Shown here in pieces: positions 16,268-23,720 of a stretch of DNA of 50,268 nt (positions within the stretch are counted from its first letter, which is position 1; each line of letters starts with the position of its first letter). The position numbers and the translations under genes are program-made. The DNA is from Erysipelotrichaceae bacterium (lineage in GTDB: Bacteria; Bacillota_I; Bacilli_A; Acholeplasmatales; Anaeroplasmataceae): the NCBI GenBank assembly GCA_015059145.1, contig SVAZ01000013.1:1-50268 (forward strand). The letters run 5' to 3'. A model generated the notes under the pieces. The model was given only the letters and a program-made list of their open reading frames with translations. It ran no database searches and was not told the origin of the DNA.

Positions 16268-17007
16268 TGGTTGGAAGACTTCATTCAGTATATGCAGGTG
16301 GAACTGTAGATGGGCCGGGTATAAGATTTGTTGTGTTTTTTAAAGGATGTCCACTTAGATGTCAATATTGCCATAATCCTGATACGTGGAGTATAGAAGG
16401 TGCTAAGGATTATACTGTTGATGAATTAATTAAAGAGGCTTTAAAATACAAGGGTTATTTCGCAACGGGCGGTGGTGTTACTGCTACAGGTGGAGAGCCT
16501 TTAATGCAAATTGATTTTCTAATTGAATTTTTTAAGGAATTAAAAAAGTACAAGATTCATACAGCAGTAGATACCTCAGGTATAATTTTTGATAAAAACA
16601 ATGAGGCTGTTATTAATAAGCTTAGAGAATTAATGAGTGTTACAGATTTATTTTTATTAGATATAAAGCATATTGATAATGAAGAGCATTTAAAGTTAAC
16701 TGGAAAAGGTAATTCAAATATTTTAGAATTTGCTAAATTTCTTTCAGATAATGATAAAAAGATGTGGATTAGACATGTTATAGTTCCAGGTATTACTTTA
16801 AATGATGAATATTTGACAAAAACTAAGGAATTTATTAATTCATTACGAACTGTTGATAAGATTGAGGTTCTTCCATATCATACAATGGGAACTGTTAAAT
16901 ATCAGCAATTAGGTATAGCATATCCCCTTGATGGAGTAGTTGCTCCAACTAAGGATGAGGTAAGACACGCTAAATATATGTTAGGAGTGATTAAAGATGT
17001 GGCTTAA
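16267..17007 (+). CDS. pflA: Pyruvate formate-lyase activating enzyme
   Basis: The 246-residue radical-SAM enzyme uses a [4Fe-4S] cluster and SAM to put the glycyl radical on pyruvate formate-lyase. The cluster ligands form CPLRCQYC (Cys28, Cys32, Cys35), and the SAM-binding GGGVTATGGEPL segment follows. Length and N-terminus (GRLHSVYAGGTVDGPGIRF) are typical of PflA proper. It sits upstream of the enzyme genes rather than after pflB as in E. coli. It overlaps nrnA by one base and the thioredoxin-like gene by 11 bases. In this organism its target glycine lies on a separate small protein (19527-19760). Confidence 0.97.
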   Translation: MVGRLHSVYAGGTVDGPGIRFVVFFKGCPLRCQYCHNPDTWSIEGAKDYTVDELIKEALKYKGYFATGGGVTATGGEPLMQIDFLIEFFKELKKYKIHTAVDTSGIIFDKNNEAVINKLRELMSVTDLFLLDIKHIDNEEHLKLTGKGNSNILEFAKFLSDNDKKMWIRHVIVPGITLNDEYLTKTKEFINSLRTVDKIEVLPYHTMGTVKYQQLGIAYPLDGVVAPTKDEVRHAKYMLGVIKDVA

Positions 17008-17317
17008 TGAGAAGAATTATAAAGAATTATTAAAAGGTATTTCAGTAATAGAAGTTTCAGGTGAATCATGTGCTAATTGTATTTCGCTTATGCCAGTATT
17101 AAATAGTATTATGTCGAATAGATCTGATGCTAAAATGTATCATATTGAAGCAAGTGAGGATACAGTTGAATTTATGGAAAAGTTTGAAATTACAACTGTT
17201 CCAACTATTTTAATAATGAATGATGATAAGGTATATGCTAGATGTAGAGGATATCAACCAGAAGAAATTTTAGAATTATGGTTAGATGCAAAAATTGAAG
17301 AAATTAAGAATATATAG
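16997..17317 (+). CDS. Thioredoxin-like protein
   Basis: The 106-residue protein has a thioredoxin fold with an atypical active site CANC (Cys25-Cys28) instead of CGPC and a cis-proline in TTVPTILIM. It lacks a signal peptide and so acts in the cytoplasm, probably as a thiol-disulfide oxidoreductase. It starts 11 bases inside pflA after an AGGAGTGA site, so it is cotranslated with the activase. Placement between pflA and pflB suggests a role in keeping the activase cluster or the PFL cysteine pair reduced, but this is inference from position only. A general redox protein is the alternative. Confidence 0.85.
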   Translation: MWLNEKNYKELLKGISVIEVSGESCANCISLMPVLNSIMSNRSDAKMYHIEASEDTVEFMEKFEITTVPTILIMNDDKVYARCRGYQPEEILELWLDAKIEEIKNI

Positions 17318-17347: not shown

Positions 17348-17366
17348 ATTAAGAATAATTCTTAAT
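17348..17366 (+). promoter_or_regulatory. Perfect 19-bp palindrome upstream of the pfl promoter
   Basis: ATTAAGAAT, one central A, then ATTCTTAAT form a perfect palindrome. Its centre is about 61 bases upstream of the expected transcription start, the usual place for a class I activator such as a CRP/FNR-family protein. The regulator is not known. Confidence 0.5.
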
Positions 17367-17382
17367 AAGGAATAAAAATCTA

Positions 17383-17411
17383 TTGATATAGTTAATGTGT
17401 TGTTATATAAT
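17383..17411 (+). promoter_or_regulatory. Promoter for the split pfl genes
   Basis: TTGATA (17383-17388) and TATAAT (17406-17411) are 17 bases apart. A leader of about 60 bases precedes pflB. Confidence 0.75.
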
Positions 17412-17475: not shown

Positions 17476-19506
17476 ATGTACAAAGGATGGGAAGGCTTCG
17501 TACCAGGAAAATGGTCAAGCGACGAAGTAAATGTTCGTGATTTTATTCAAAGAAATTATGTTCCATATGAAGGAGATTCAAGCTTCTTAGCACCAGCTAC
17601 TGATGCTACAAAGAAATTATGGGATATAGTAATGGATTACTGTGCAAAGGAAAGAGCTGCTGGTGGTGTATTAAAATGTGATACAAGCATTGTATCTCAA
17701 ATTAATTCACATGAAGCTGGCTATTTAGATAAGAGCTTAGAAAAAATTGTAGGTCTTCAAACAGATGAACCATTAAAGAGAGCATTAATGCCATTCGGTG
17801 GTATTAAGATGGCTGAACAAGCTGCTGCTCAATATGGATATACTGTTGATCCAGAAATTCATACAATCTTTACTAAGTATCGCAAGACTCATAATGATGG
17901 TGTATTTGATGCTTATACTCCAGAAATGAGAGCTTGTCGTACAGCTCATATTTTAACTGGTTTACCTGATACTTATGGTAGAGGACGTATTGTTGGTGAT
18001 TACCGTAGAGTAGCATTATATGGTACAGACTACCTTATTAAGCAAAAGGAATTAGATAAGTCTTTAATCGGTGGAGATATGAGACCTGATGTTATTAGAG
18101 ATCGTGAAGAAATCTCTGAGCAAATCAAGGCTTTAAAGGAATTAGCTTTAATGGCTGAGCGCTATGGCTGTGATATTACTAAGCCAGCTGAAACTGCTAA
18201 GGAAGCTGTTCAAGCATTATACTTTGGATATTTAGGAGCTGTTAAGGACCAAAATGGTGCAGCAATGTCAATTGGTCGTAACACTACTTTCTTAGATATT
18301 TATTTCGAAAGAGATTTAGCTAAGGGTATTATTACAGAAGAAGAGGCTCAAGAAATCATTGACCACTTTATTATGAAATTACGTATTGTAAGATTTGCAC
18401 GTATTGAATCATACAATCAATTATTCTCAGGAGATCCAACTTGGGTTACTGAATCTATTGGTGGTATGGGTGTAGATGGTCGTACATTAGTTACTAAGAC
18501 TGCATTCCGTGTTTTACATACATTAGATAACTTAGGACCTGCACCAGAACCAAACCTAACAGTTTTATGGTCAAAGAGATTACCAAAGAACTTCAAGGCT
18601 TTCTGTGCTGATTTATCAATCCGTACTTCATCAATCCAATATGAATCAGACGAATTAATGCGTCCTGAAATGGGTGATGATTACTGTATCGCATGTTGTG
18701 TATCTTCAATGAGAGTTGGTAAGGATATGCAATTCTTTGGTGCACGTGCTAACCTAGCTAAGTGTTTATTATATGCATTAAATGGTGGTAAGGACGAATT
18801 ACATAAGGATAAGAAAACAGGTTTACCTTTACAAGTAGCACCTGAATATTCACCTATTACTTCTAATGAACCTTTAGATTATGCTGAGGTTGTTAAGAAG
18901 TATGAACAAATGATGGAGTGGTTAGCTAATGTTTATGTTAACACATTAAACCTAATCCACTACATGCATGACAAGTATTCTTACGAAGCATTAGAAATGG
19001 CTTTACATGATTCAAAGGTTGGTCGTTTCTTTGCAACAGGTATCGCTGGTTTATCTTGTGCAGTTGACTCATTATCAGCTATCAAGTATGCAAAGGTTAC
19101 TCCTGTTCGTAACGAATTCGGTTTAATTTCTGATTACAATATTGAGGGTGATTTCCCTAAATATGGTAATAATGATGACCGTGCAGATGATATCGCTGTA
19201 TGGTTAGTTAAGACATTCATGAATAAGATTAAAAAGCACTACACTTATCGTGAATCTATCCCTACTATGTCAATCTTAACTATTACTTCAAATGTAGTAT
19301 ATGGTAAGAACACTGGTAATACTCCTGATGGACGTAAGGCTGGTGAACCATTAGCACCAGGTGCAAACCCAATGCACGGACGTGATACTCATGGTGCATT
19401 AGCTTCATTAGAATCAGTTGCTAAGCTTCCATATGACTATTCTAGAGATGGTATTTCTAATACTTTCTCTGTAACACCTGCTTCTTTAGGTAAAGAAGAA
19501 GACTAA
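17476..19506 (+). CDS. pflB: Pyruvate formate-lyase core lacking the glycyl-radical domain
   Basis: The 676-residue protein is the catalytic barrel of formate acetyltransferase, which converts pyruvate and CoA to acetyl-CoA and formate. The catalytic cysteine pair is present in CIACCVSSM (Cys407-Cys408), at the position of Cys418-Cys419 of the E. coli enzyme. Typical PFL is about 740-760 residues; here the chain stops after [13 protein letters not shown], exactly where the linker to the C-terminal glycyl-radical domain would begin. That domain is the next gene. ATG 17476 follows GAGGG and begins the conserved N-terminus (YKGWEGF); upstream in-frame starts would add unrelated residues. Codon choice suggests very high expression. 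Confidence 0.95.
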
Positions 19507-19526
19507 TTTTTAGGAGGAAAAGAATT

Positions 19527-19760
19527 ATGTCAAATAGAGTTGAAAATTTAATTCAAATGTTAGATACATATGTAGCAGATGGTGGTTACCATTTAAATGT
19601 TAATGTTTTTGATAGAGAAACATTATTAGATGCTCAAAAGCATCCTGAAAAGTATCCACAATTAACAATTCGTGTTTCTGGTTATGCAGTTAACTTCATC
19701 AAGCTTACAAAAGAGCAACAAGATGATGTTATCAATCGTACAATTCACGAGTCTATGTAA
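19527..19760 (+). CDS. Separate glycyl-radical subunit of pyruvate formate-lyase (GrcA/YfiD-like)
   Basis: The 77-residue protein is the C-terminal glycyl-radical domain of PFL as its own gene. The radical glycine is Gly52 in RVSGYAV, preceded by GGYHLNVNV and followed by [13 protein letters not shown], all normal PFL C-terminal features. It starts 20 bases after the pflB stop, in another frame, behind a strong AGGAGGA site, so it is a clean gene split rather than a single lost stop. Together the two chains total 753 residues, a full PFL. It resembles the stand-alone E. coli protein GrcA, which replaces damaged PFL domains, but here no intact PFL is present in the window. A terminator follows. 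Confidence 0.93.
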
Positions 19761-19766
19761 TTAATG

Positions 19767-19798
19767 AAGAGCTATCGTTTGATAGCTCTTTTATTTTT
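19767..19798 (+). terminator. Terminator of the pfl operon
   Basis: AAGAGCTATC (19767-19776), loop GTTT, GATAGCTCTT (19781-19790), then TTATTTTT. The ten-pair stem is perfect. Confidence 0.88.
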
Positions 19799-19838: not shown

Positions 19839-19847
19839 TTACTTGTG

Positions 19848-19937
19848 ACAGAGTAGCAAGAGCGCGTTAAGTGCTATATCATGGGAAGTTGGATATGGAC
19901 GAACACAAATGTGGCGATTCTCTTGTGCATCCGCTGT
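19848..19937 (+). ncRNA. Tetrahydrofolate (THF-I) riboswitch
   Basis: The region carries the conserved parts of the THF aptamer: GAGTAG, GCGCGTTAAGTG, ATGGGA and GCATCCGCTGT. The helices can be drawn: P1 ACAG/CTGT (19848-19851 with 19934-19937), P2 CAAGAG/CTCTTG (19857-19862 with 19920-19925), and a stem CTATATC/GATATGG. No T-tract terminator lies between it and ATG 19978, so control is probably translational through the GGGAGG site (19966-19971). The downstream gene encodes a FolT-like folate transporter part, the classical target of this riboswitch class. Confidence 0.92.
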
Positions 19938-19977
19938 ACTTAGTTATAGTGGACTCTTCAGTATTGGGAGGCCGAAT

Positions 19978-21207
19978 ATGAAAAATAGAATAATAAAATC
20001 CTTTTGGGTATATAAGGCAATTGTCCTTATGTTTTTACTTGTTGGATTTCTTGTAGGATTTTTTGTTACAGAATATGTGTTTAATGAGAACTTTAGCTAT
20101 TACAGGTTCGAAATTACTTCAAATACTAATCCTAAGGAATTTATGAATGAAGATTTCTTTACAAAAACCTTAGAAGATATTTCCACTTATAATTCAAATC
20201 TGGAAGAAGGACAAAGTAAAATTAGTATCGCTAATATAGAAAATTATGCGAAGATGACTAAAAAGGCTAAGATAAAGGAAATAGGTGATAATGTATATAC
20301 TATCTCTATTCAAAGGAAATTTTTTCCTACAACCTTTAAGACATCTAGTGGTGAGCTTAATGAAGGATTAGCTAGATGTAGTAAATATATTAAAACAATT
20401 TTAACCTTTGATTCTACAGATAGTTTTGAAATTACATTTAATAATGATCCAATCGCAATCTATGTAGGTCATTTAAATCCTTATCTTTTTGGATTGTTAA
20501 TGATGGTTGTAATTCTAATATTTATAATTATTTTATTTGCGATAGGCTCTAAAGAAACAGAGGATAAGTTTCTTATTGATATTGCTGATAATGAGTTTAT
20601 ATTTAAAACTCCATTTCACAAAAAATATTGGACTTTTGCCAGCAAAGAATTTTCAACTGTTAAAAAGCTTTGTGGTATAAGCGTTACGTTTGCACTAATG
20701 TTTATTTGTAAGCTCGTAGTTATACCTTCAGGATTTGCAAATTTAGGAATTGGTATAACTTATCTAGTCTTTTCAATAATAGCAATGATATATGGACCTA
20801 TTTGTGGAATTACTATAGGCTTCTTATCTGATATTTTAGGATATTTTGTATTTCAATCTTCTGAGGTATTCTTTTTAGGATACACAGTAAATGCAATGCT
20901 ATCAGGATTAATGTATGGATTATGCTTTTATAAAACTAAGGTTACATTTACTAAATGCTTATATGCAAGATTATTTGTCAATCTATTTGTAAATGTATTT
21001 TTAGGTTCAATATGGTGGGCTATGCTTTATGATTTAAATTTCGAAGCAATGATGACATATATGTTATTTATTTCGTTGCCTAAAAATTTAATTTATTTGA
21101 TACCACAAAGTATAATTTTATATGTAATATTGAAGGCTGTTGCAAGGCCACTTTCTGCATGTGGAATCATAGATCAAAAAATTGGTGAAAATATTACTCT
21201 AATTTAA
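19978..21207 (+). CDS. FolT-like ECF folate transporter S component with extra N-terminal domain
   Basis: The 409-residue protein has two parts. The C-terminal part (about 225-409) is a multi-helix S component of an energy-coupling-factor transporter (GITYLVFSIIAMIYGPICG, LSDILGYF, SLPKNLIYLIPQS); the THF riboswitch in front identifies folate as the probable ligand. The N-terminal part (1-200) is a membrane helix (11-32), an extracytoplasmic domain of about 125 residues and a second helix (about 165-195). Normal FolT is about 170-190 residues without this. The added topology recalls Wzz-type proteins such as the one at 4271. ATG 19978 follows GGGAGG; the upstream in-frame sequence belongs to the riboswitch. 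The A and T components of the transporter are not in the window. Confidence 0.8.
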   Translation: MKNRIIKSFWVYKAIVLMFLLVGFLVGFFVTEYVFNENFSYYRFEITSNTNPKEFMNEDFFTKTLEDISTYNSNLEEGQSKISIANIENYAKMTKKAKIKEIGDNVYTISIQRKFFPTTFKTSSGELNEGLARCSKYIKTILTFDSTDSFEITFNNDPIAIYVGHLNPYLFGLLMMVVILIFIIILFAIGSKETEDKFLIDIADNEFIFKTPFHKKYWTFASKEFSTVKKLCGISVTFALMFICKLVVIPSGFANLGIGITYLVFSIIAMIYGPICGITIGFLSDILGYFVFQSSEVFFLGYTVNAMLSGLMYGLCFYKTKVTFTKCLYARLFVNLFVNVFLGSIWWAMLYDLNFEAMMTYMLFISLPKNLIYLIPQSIILYVILKAVARPLSACGIIDQKIGENITLI

Positions 21208-21249: not shown

Positions 21250-21335
21250 ATGTCATAAAGAGAAGGGTAGAGGCAAGCTCGTTGATCCTTCAGCAACCTA
21301 CAATATGCAAGGTGCTAAAGCTTGATGGATGGCAT
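21250..21335 (+). ncRNA. SAM-I (S-box) riboswitch aptamer
   Basis: Conserved S-box elements are visible: AGAGAAGGGTAGAGG, CAGCAACC (21291-21298) and GGTGCTAAA (21311-21319). P1 pairs ATGTCAT (21250-21256) with ATGGCAT (21329-21335). The 3' strand of P1 overlaps GATGGC (21328-21333), which can pair with the left arm of the terminator at 21350-21355. SAM binding would hold P1 together and free the terminator, so high SAM stops transcription. The controlled operon starts with priA and ends with metK. Confidence 0.9.
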
Positions 21336-21349
21336 GAATATAAAATAAC

Positions 21350-21392: not shown

Positions 21393-23720
21393 ATGATAGC
21401 TGAAATAATAATTGATATTAAGAATAAGCAGGTTAATCGAAGCTTTGATTACATCGTTCCTAAGTTTCTAGAGGATATTATTGACGTTGGCTATAGAGTT
21501 ACAGTTCCTTTTGGAAATACTAAAAGAGTAGGCTTTGTAACAAAGCTAAAGGATTCAACTGAGTTTAAAAGTAATCTTAAGGAAATCCTAGAGCTTGTTG
21601 ATGTTTATCCAGTTTTGAATGAGGAATTTATTGGTATAGCTAAGTATATTGCTGAAAACAATTTTTCCTTTTATGCAACTGCATTACAGACAATGATTCC
21701 TACATCACTTAAGGTCAAATATAAAAGAGTTGCAAGAGTTATTAATAGAGAAGATATTACACAGGAGTGTAAAGAAATACTAAAAAGAAATGAATGCCAA
21801 ATTGATGGGTTTGATAATAATAAGCTTAAGATAGTATATGCTGAGGTTAAAAAAGGAAATGTTATTTTAGATACAATACCTAAAAAGAAAAAGGATTCTA
21901 ATGAGATAGCATATGTTAGATTAAATGATACAGATATTAAGCCTTCAAGCAAACAAGGTGCAGGACTTGTATCATTTTTAGAGGAAATTAATGATTCAAT
22001 AGAGCTTAGTGTTTTACTTGAGGATTCAGGATATTCTAAATCTGTAGTTGATACATTAGCTAGAAAAGGAATTATAAGCATTTATACTAAAGAAATTATT
22101 CCACTTAAGGAAAAGAATATTGATTATCCTAATAAAGTAATTGAATTTAATAAATATCAATTAGCAGCATATAAGGCATTAAAGCTTAATGAGTATAAGA
22201 CATACTTGCTTCATGGTATTACTGGAAGTGGTAAAACAGAGGTTTATATGAAGTGGATTGAGGATGCAATCAAGGCTAACAAGACTGCTATTATGCTTGT
22301 TCCTGAAATCTCTCTTACTCCACAAATAACAGGCTTGTTTCAAAACAGATTTGGTTCTGAAATAGCAATTTTACATTCTAGATTGACCTTGAATGAAAAA
22401 TATAATGAATGGAAGAGAATATATAATAAGTCTGTTAAAATTGTAGTAGGTGCTAGATCTGCAATATTTGCTCCACTTGATAATTTAGGAATTATTATTA
22501 TTGATGAATGTCATGAGCAATCTTATATTCAGCAAAATAATCCTAAATATAATGCGATTGAAATAGCAAAGCTTAGAGGTGCTAATCATAGCTGTTGTGT
22601 TGTTTTGGGTAGTGCTACGCCTAATGTTTCAGATTATTATTATGCCACTAATGGTGAGTATGAGCTTTTGTCAATGCCTGTTCGTGCTAATGGTAAGCTT
22701 TTACCTAGAGCTAAGGTTATTGATTTGAAGGAGGAGCTTCAAAGTGGAAATAGAAGTGTTTTATCAAGAGAGCTACAACGAAAGCTAAAGTCATGTTATG
22801 ATAAGCGTGAGCAATCTATTTTATTTTTAAATAGAAGAGGCTACTCTTCATTTGTTATGTGTAGAAGCTGTGGTGAGTCTGTTAAATGTCCTAATTGTGA
22901 TATTTCACTTACCTATCATGCAAATACTCAAAGCCTTAAATGTCATTATTGTGGCTTCCATCAACCAAACGTTATGAAGTGTCATAGCTGTGGCTCTGAT
23001 AAGATACGTTTTGTTGGAAGTGGTACTGAAAAAATTATAGAGGCTGCACAGGATTTAATTCCTGGTGCTAAGATATTAAGAGTTGATTTAGATACTGCAG
23101 CTAAAATAGAAGATTATGAAGCCGCATTTTATAAATTTAAAAATCATGAGGCTGATATATTAGTTGGTACACAAATGATTACTAAGGGATTAGATTTTAA
23201 GGATGTAACATTAGTAGGTGTTGTTAATGCTGATCTAGCACTATCTTATCCGTTGTTTGATGCTTCACAGGTGGCTTTTAATTTGATAGAACAGGTGTCA
23301 GGTCGTGCCGGTCGAGCTGACAAGGATGGAGAGGTTATTATTCAAACCTATAATCCAAAGCATTATGTGATTGAATGTGCAAAGAATCATGATTATGAAA
23401 GCTTCTATAATTTTGAAATTCGTAATAGAAGAGTTACTCAAATGCCACCATATTCAACAGTGATTGAAATTATGGTTCAGTCTAAGGATGCAAATAAGGC
23501 ATATGAGGAGGCAAAAATTATTGTTGAGAATTTAAAAAAGGAAGCAACTGATTCTATTATTTTAGGTCCAGCTGAGGATATGATATTTAAGAAAAATAAT
23601 GTATTTAGATTTGTGATTCAAATTCAAGCAGTAGAGGATAGAGTATTAAATAAGATTAAATATCTTTATCCGTTATATCAAAATAATAAGGATATAAGCT
23701 TATCTATAACAAGGATGTGA
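21393..23720 (+). CDS. priA: Primosomal protein N', replication-restart helicase PriA
   Basis: The 775-residue superfamily 2 helicase reloads the replisome at stalled forks. An N-terminal DNA-binding domain (1-110) is followed by the Walker A motif GITGSGKT (275-282), the DECH box (371-374), the zinc-binding insertion with paired CxxC motifs from Cys490 (CRSCG, CPNC, CHYCG, CHSCG) and motifs V and VI (VGTQMITKGLDF, EQVSGRAGRA). All catalytic parts are present. An AAGGAGGG site precedes ATG 21393. The gene is the first of an operon under a SAM riboswitch, which is unusual for a DNA repair gene; fmt follows four bases after its stop. Confidence 0.97.
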   Translation: MIAEIIIDIKNKQVNRSFDYIVPKFLEDIIDVGYRVTVPFGNTKRVGFVTKLKDSTEFKSNLKEILELVDVYPVLNEEFIGIAKYIAENNFSFYATALQTMIPTSLKVKYKRVARVINREDITQECKEILKRNECQIDGFDNNKLKIVYAEVKKGNVILDTIPKKKKDSNEIAYVRLNDTDIKPSSKQGAGLVSFLEEINDSIELSVLLEDSGYSKSVVDTLARKGIISIYTKEIIPLKEKNIDYPNKVIEFNKYQLAAYKALKLNEYKTYLLHGITGSGKTEVYMKWIEDAIKANKTAIMLVPEISLTPQITGLFQNRFGSEIAILHSRLTLNEKYNEWKRIYNKSVKIVVGARSAIFAPLDNLGIIIIDECHEQSYIQQNNPKYNAIEIAKLRGANHSCCVVLGSATPNVSDYYYATNGEYELLSMPVRANGKLLPRAKVIDLKEELQSGNRSVLSRELQRKLKSCYDKREQSILFLNRRGYSSFVMCRSCGESVKCPNCDISLTYHANTQSLKCHYCGFHQPNVMKCHSCGSDKIRFVGSGTEKIIEAAQDLIPGAKILRVDLDTAAKIEDYEAAFYKFKNHEADILVGTQMITKGLDFKDVTLVGVVNADLALSYPLFDASQVAFNLIEQVSGRAGRADKDGEVIIQTYNPKHYVIECAKNHDYESFYNFEIRNRRVTQMPPYSTVIEIMVQSKDANKAYEEAKIIVENLKKEATDSIILGPAEDMIFKKNNVFRFVIQIQAVEDRVLNKIKYLYPLYQNNKDISLSITRM

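Follow-up and report, generated by a model that had tools for sequence, protein, structure and literature searches.

Oxygen exposes a weakness of pyruvate formate-lyase (PFL), because it cuts the enzyme at its own radical glycine. In the window analyzed here (the whole 50,268-nucleotide stretch of DNA, contig C13 of a 1.43-Mb source assembly that is 94.4% complete), a PFL gene ends without this glycine, and a short reading frame just behind it carries one. This locus raises the question of whether the two frames are remnants of a damaged gene or encode the subunits of a two-part PFL, and whether a separate radical-bearing protein relates to oxygen. Based on the sequence comparisons below, we favor an obligate two-subunit PFL (probability of roughly 0.83), in which a 676-residue core and a 77-residue radical protein would assemble, become activated, and act as one enzyme.

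Two reading frames covering one PFL

The first-pass annotation had described a core with an adjacent cysteine pair and, 20 nt behind it, a separate RVSGYAV protein with its own AGGAGGA site, and both frames were recovered as described (Table 1). The core scored 1071.8 bits against TIGR01255, passing the equivalog cut-off of 994.2. Along the 744 positions of this profile, the core matched 2 to 664 and the small protein 665 to 744 with no overlap, so that together they cover the model end to end, in agreement with the earlier proposal that the two parts equal one normal PFL. By itself, the core lacks the radical glycine expected in the same polypeptide, which sits on the next ORF. The core had also been proposed to end exactly before the radical domain. 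The glycine-bearing part is indeed absent from the core, but the break falls inside Pfam Gly_radical (106 positions), with the core retaining the first half (positions 2 to 50) and the small protein matching 52 to 106.

Table 1. Features of the PFL locus, with positions numbered along the window
Feature	Position	Strand	Remarks
pflA, radical-SAM PFL activase, 246 aa	16267..17007	+	TIGR02493, 298.7 bits (cut-off 231.75)
Thioredoxin-like protein, 106 aa, CANC motif	16997..17317	+	Pfam Thioredoxin_2/Thioredoxin; overlaps pflA
Palindrome TTAAGAATAATTCTTAA, predicted PerR/Fur-family operator	17349..17365	.	exact match
Promoter-like TTGATA-17-TATAAT	17383..17411	+	11 of 12 consensus positions; 3' of the palindrome
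PFL core subunit, 676 aa, Cys407-Cys408, without the radical glycine	17476..19506	+	
Ribosome-binding site AGGAGGA of the small subunit	19512..19518	+	in the 20-nt gap after the core stop
Glycyl-radical subunit, 77 aa, RVSGYAV, Gly52	19527..19760	+	ATG start at 19527
Intrinsic-terminator-like hairpin 3' of the small subunit	19766..19791	+	11-pair stem, 4-nt loop, T-rich tail

Residues 17 to 77 of the small protein align to residues 699 to 759 of E. coli PFL, placing Gly52 at Gly734 and the break at about residue 679. Counted along the printed alignments, Arg171, Trp323, and Arg424 of the core correspond to E. coli Arg176, Trp333, and Arg435, which we take to be substrate-binding residues. These three positions and the Cys407-Cys408 pair were invariant in all 30 aligned cores (the window plus 29 chosen from the best 80 of 586 relatives in a named genome collection), and Gly52 and its flanks were invariant across 30 aligned small proteins. 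A model of the core fits the E. coli PFL fold, with 62% identity to 2pfl in the fold comparison. The small-protein model was too poor to use (pLDDT of 66), and overall the fold comparison contributed little.

The locus thus resembles one-piece PflB (E. coli, TIGR01255) in core sequence, cysteine pair, radical glycine motif, and adjoining PflA, and differs in having the radical glycine on a separate protein. In the proposed two-subunit enzyme, the 77-residue protein would dock in the pocket vacated by the missing C terminus of the core, PflA would install the radical on Gly52 of the core-bound small protein, and the small protein would pass the radical to the core cysteine pair for pyruvate cleavage, as the C terminus does in E. 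coli. According to Table 1 of PMC12338860, an E. coli PflB-G734A variant made formate with GrcA and none without it, indicating that a radical domain can function from a separate chain.

Separate core and small genes in relatives

We surveyed 55 genomes of the window's family, including the source. The small protein was encoded as a stand-alone frame in 43 of these genomes and as part of a fused PFL in two (G018 and G019); ten genomes gave no match, three of which (G011, G022, and G048) carry part of a core. Among the 49 small-protein loci examined in the family (48 fetched plus the window), 41 had a measurable separate core just 5' on the same strand, with three of these cores cut by a contig end. 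Of the remaining eight, five were stand-alone copies, two sat at contig edges, and one had a broken core. Gaps between core and small gene in the 41 pairs ranged from -8 to +54 nt, and the small gene lay in frame 0, 1, or 2 relative to the core in 15, 13, and 13 pairs, respectively. Of the 38 family loci with complete cores, 33 had a small gene whose computed Shine-Dalgarno pairing, for which we assumed the anti-Shine-Dalgarno string, exceeded that of the core in strength (p = 7e-6, a value overstated by the relatedness of the genomes). The first-pass annotation had anticipated that a continuous frame in related genomes would speak against the split, and both outcomes occur: separate adjacent genes at 41 of the 49 family loci and fused genes in G018 and G019. 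No PFL core was seen in 7 of 25 chosen genomes, some of which are incomplete.

The split form extends beyond the family. In a class survey of 296 genomes, we considered frames shorter than 200 residues outside the window's family among the matches listed (n = 34), and 28 of these adjoin a separate core. The other six were a stand-alone extra copy (L178), a small gene with its core elsewhere (L183), two broken frames (L191 and L192), and two frames that were not typical PFL or lay at a contig edge (L193 and L194). Outside the family, the gap between core and small gene reached 427 nt, and in G387 the two genes lie about 3.5 kb apart. We also found three single-contig genomes, G218, G453, and G371, in each of which one core and one small gene were detected, separated by about 99, 97, and 469 kb, respectively; from seven in-frame TGA codons in the core, these genomes probably use genetic code 4.

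The search suggested by the earlier annotation, for short PflB proteins beside a small RVSGY protein, therefore returned the split form in 43 of the 55 family genomes and in 74 of the best 80 of 586 relatives in the named collection. Because these 80 were chosen by likeness to the split core, they are not a census; the other six were three fused genes (L217, L227, and L260) and three loci cut by a contig end. We counted L236 as split despite an automatic fused call, as it matches L082, a pair with a 1-nt ORF overlap. Split loci include those of Ruminococcus albus 8, R. albus KH2T6, and R. bicirculans 80/3, as well as Gastranaerophilales and Acholeplasmatales/Anaeroplasmataceae metagenome-assembled genomes. 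The small protein also matched 1539 phage records, and 12 of the 15 rows examined were unannotated or called hypothetical or unknown.

Two gene orders are seen at split loci: pflA-(trx)-core-small, which is that of the window, and core-small-pflA. Many split loci carry a thioredoxin-like (CANC) gene between pflA and the core, and others have pflA directly 5' of the core. pflA could be located for 37 fused PFLs, and it lies downstream in 34 of them. The three with pflA upstream include L217 and L227, which fall inside the split clade, and a third gene in another, fused clade. Approximately unbiased (AU) tests rejected trees that set 32 split rows apart from L217 and L227 (p = 1.4e-5), as well as trees holding out L217 alone (p = 0.00058) or L227 alone (p = 1.3e-6); these p values are optimistic, since they come from quick trees of 40 rows chosen with the first tree already in view. 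L217 and L227 are thus probable independent re-fusions. The pflA order requires two changes on a 173-row FastTree. A single origin of the split was rejected, as the same tree needs at least eight changes between split and fused forms, an estimate that exceeds the true count given that at least three rows labeled split are unsafe (L191, L192, and L290, the last of which is probably two tandem fused genes). The fused PFLs of G018 (L084) and G019 (L083), which belong to the same genus as the window, are distant (65% identity) with pflA downstream, and they probably replaced the split form.

The only PFL in view and its relation to GrcA-type proteins

Across the source genome, we found a single PFL core and a single radical tail of PFL type, and no second PFL-like gene was detected in this 94.4% complete assembly. 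The sole other glycyl-radical match was weak and corresponds to NrdD, with an NrdG-like radical-SAM gene adjoining. These results extend to the whole genome the earlier view that the two-part form is the only PFL, and a full-length pflB elsewhere, which the first-pass annotation had named as evidence that would overturn its reading, was looked for and none was found. The genome also encodes a pyruvate:ferredoxin oxidoreductase, which offers another pyruvate route beside PFL, so supplying formate and one-carbon units may be as much a task of PFL as forming acetyl-CoA.

Like GrcA/YfiD and phage T4 Y06I, the small protein carries the C-terminal radical motif of PFL on a short chain and serves a core without that motif. 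YfiD, in contrast, has 127 residues including an N-terminal half that the 77-residue protein lacks, and YfiD serves a one-piece PFL damaged by oxygen, whereas the small protein is the only radical donor found in this genome. Against TIGR04365 (GrcA/YfiD), the small protein scored 96.2 bits (cut-off of 170) and matched only positions 59 to 126 of 126, placing it outside that model. A closer match was NCBIfam NF038360, GrcA3 (78 residues), at 152.4 bits against a cut-off of 158, and the protein of G028, a genome of the same family, reached 158.3 bits. By sequence, the small protein and GrcA3 are the same family; the name GrcA3 implies an autonomous spare, whereas the gene context here is that of a partner for a glycine-less core.

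PMC8683613 reports that YfiD activation was detectable only with cleaved PFL present, that truncated E. coli YfiD showed no clear binding to cleaved PFL, and that PFL residues 696 to 733 aided binding. Because the core stops at about 679, without residues 696 to 733, and the small protein lacks the YfiD N-terminal half, docking in the two-subunit enzyme would have to differ from that of YfiD.

The first-pass annotation could not tell whether such a split had already been described in relatives. The form is widespread, its small part carries the name GrcA3, and two PDB entries resemble the core: 38la and 38lb (formate acetyltransferase chains of 687 and 739 residues) match it to the LGK end without a radical domain. 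The final residues of 38lb (about 702 to 739) aligned with nothing, and where its match ends it looks like the extended split core found in Ruminococcus albus. Neither entry was returned by a PDB search with the small protein. From these chains, some group is probably working on split-type PFLs. Among the literature matches listed, a set mostly outside subscription papers, we found no description of a natural split PFL in print; prior knowledge of it is nonetheless likely.

Several other explanations for the two frames can be weighed against a two-subunit PFL. A sequencing error, a frameshift, or a decaying pseudogene of a one-piece PFL has in its favor that a few relatives do show broken frames (L191, L192, and L047). 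The annotation had argued against a missing or wrong base from the placement of the ribosome-binding site and start alone, and the relatives make this argument much stronger: the spread of pairs over all three frames, a separate start for every small gene, gaps that vary, genes unlinked in the three single-contig genomes, and strong conservation of both parts exclude sequencing error or chance, leaving an artefact virtually no probability. A programmed frameshift or read-through producing a fused PFL from both ORFs would suit the 10 of 41 family pairs with overlapping ORFs or a gap of at most 3 nt. The even spread over frames, the longer gaps within and beyond the family, and the unlinked genes all argue against it, and we hold such recoding to be very improbable. 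The small protein could instead be a GrcA-type spare only, with the core activated by something else, as the NCBIfam name for an autonomous glycyl radical cofactor implies and as the extra, spare-like copies described below might suggest. We found no intact PFL in the genome for a spare to repair and no other PFL-type radical domain to activate the core, and the core has no radical glycine that could be damaged, which makes a spare-only role improbable. An obligate two-subunit PFL is therefore the reading that we carry forward, and it would call into question labeling the small protein a repair factor wherever a genome has no intact PFL.

A palindrome shared with PerR-like and rubrerythrin genes

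The palindrome TTAAGAATNATTCTTAA has exactly two exact copies in the source genome, one in the interval separating the core from the thioredoxin gene and the other just 5' of a Fur-family (PerR-like) gene, with genes for rubrerythrin and a Dabb stress protein behind it. We searched for it in 55 genomes, including the source (33 of the window's family and 22 of other families), counting only exact matches because at two mismatches a reversed control gave nine sites against five for the pattern in the source genome. Exact copies numbered 20, spread over 12 genomes that all belong to the window's genus, and the reversed pattern had none. Eleven sites precede perR-like/rubrerythrin genes, six precede a split PFL core (the window and five relatives, at the same place), one precedes an extra small-subunit gene in G007, and two lie near what is presumably a YggS-type gene (L117, site 3387; L122, site 2971), these two being the only ones away from perR-rubrerythrin and PFL genes. 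At ten fused PFL loci tested, the palindrome was absent, with best matches at four to seven mismatches. The palindrome does not mark split PFLs in general, as it is absent from most family loci. In G008 and G009 (L051 and L057), it occurs with one mismatch about 100 nt 5' of pflA and not before the core, and the only exact copy in G018 and in G019 is at perR-rubrerythrin.

At the core, the palindrome lies 17 nt upstream of the -35 element. The promoter-like element itself is weak evidence alone, as 16 such sites were found in the region against 15.1 expected; by eye, a similar hexamer pair appeared in six of seven aligned upstream regions. Inspection by eye puts the palindrome 3' of a -10-like element, where a repressor would sit, for most perR genes and for the extra small gene. 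With the box upstream of its promoter, PFL could be either activated or repressed through it.

The two best PDB matches of the PerR-like regulator are PerR proteins, and NCBIfam PerR was its best model at a score under the cut-off. At the PerR ligand positions His37, Asp85, His91, His93, and Asp104, all 20 orthologues have H, E, H, H, and D. In PMC4866751, Asp at the last position is given as a mark distinguishing PerR from Fur, and Glu at the second position is found in the peroxide-reactive PerR3 of B. licheniformis. The arrangement may resemble a PerR regulon in its Fur-family regulator with four of five PerR ligands, its location beside rubrerythrin, and its shared palindrome, and it differs in the Glu at the Asp85 position, like that reported for PerR3.

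At least eight genomes carry more small genes than cores (G007, G028, G032, G034, G038, G311, G471, and G436), with the G038 core visible only as two contig-edge pieces; most loci have a single small copy. Three of the extra genes lie in a stress-related setting. In G007 (L052), the exact palindrome begins 31 nt before the start of the extra gene; in G028 (L035), the extra gene lies 28 nt past the rubrerythrin stop; and in G311 (L178), about 110 nt separate it from a downstream Fur-family gene, behind which rubrerythrin lies, and this interval holds two variant palindromes identified by eye. With the queries used, and with L047 of G034 left out, no perR-like or rubrerythrin neighbor was found in the other five genomes.

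These observations bear on the earlier suggestion that an oxygen-damaged radical part could be replaced without remaking the large subunit. With the radical carried by a small protein that is translated separately from its own start, and with extra gene copies tied to oxidative-stress genes in some relatives, fresh radical subunits might take the place of oxygen-cut ones on a retained core. The palindrome shared with PerR-like/rubrerythrin genes and the three stress-linked extra genes favor this idea, the five extra-copy genomes without such a setting do not, and we put its chances slightly below even. Somewhat more tentative is the broader proposal that Bacillota in large part possess a two-subunit PFL with a consumable radical subunit, whose supply in some lineages would be under peroxide control beside rubrerythrin as an evolved answer to oxygen cleavage, so that what is a spare part in E. 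coli would here be the standard architecture. The alternative for this part of the argument accepts the two-part PFL as real and treats the split as ordinary gene fission with no oxygen link. Interconversion of fission and fusion, the few split loci with the palindrome, the single small copy at most loci, and the extra-copy genomes lacking a stress neighbor are what a neutral split predicts. Wide retention of the split, a palindrome common to the split core and perR-rubrerythrin, and the setting of the three extra genes are harder to reconcile with it. We regard a neutral split as a substantial minority possibility, a judgment that concerns only the benefit of the split and overlaps with that on the two-subunit enzyme itself.

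The exact palindrome linking the PFL core with PerR-like/rubrerythrin genes, the stress-linked extra small genes, and the apparent re-fusions seem to be new. With the two-subunit PFL as a natural and widespread form that places its glycine on a cheap separate protein, the spare-part idea would become testable in its native state, and the links to the PerR-like gene and rubrerythrin yield a direct prediction of regulation.

Two riboswitches follow the operon. A THF riboswitch (window 19847-19938, plus strand; 69.4 bits) lies right behind it and 5' of an ECF-transporter S-component gene, whose ORF is listed at 19909-21207 and whose true start is probably 3' of the riboswitch. A SAM riboswitch (window 21250-21346, plus strand; 51.9 bits) precedes ORF 21393-23720, which we take to encode a PriA-like helicase, an unusual-looking target.
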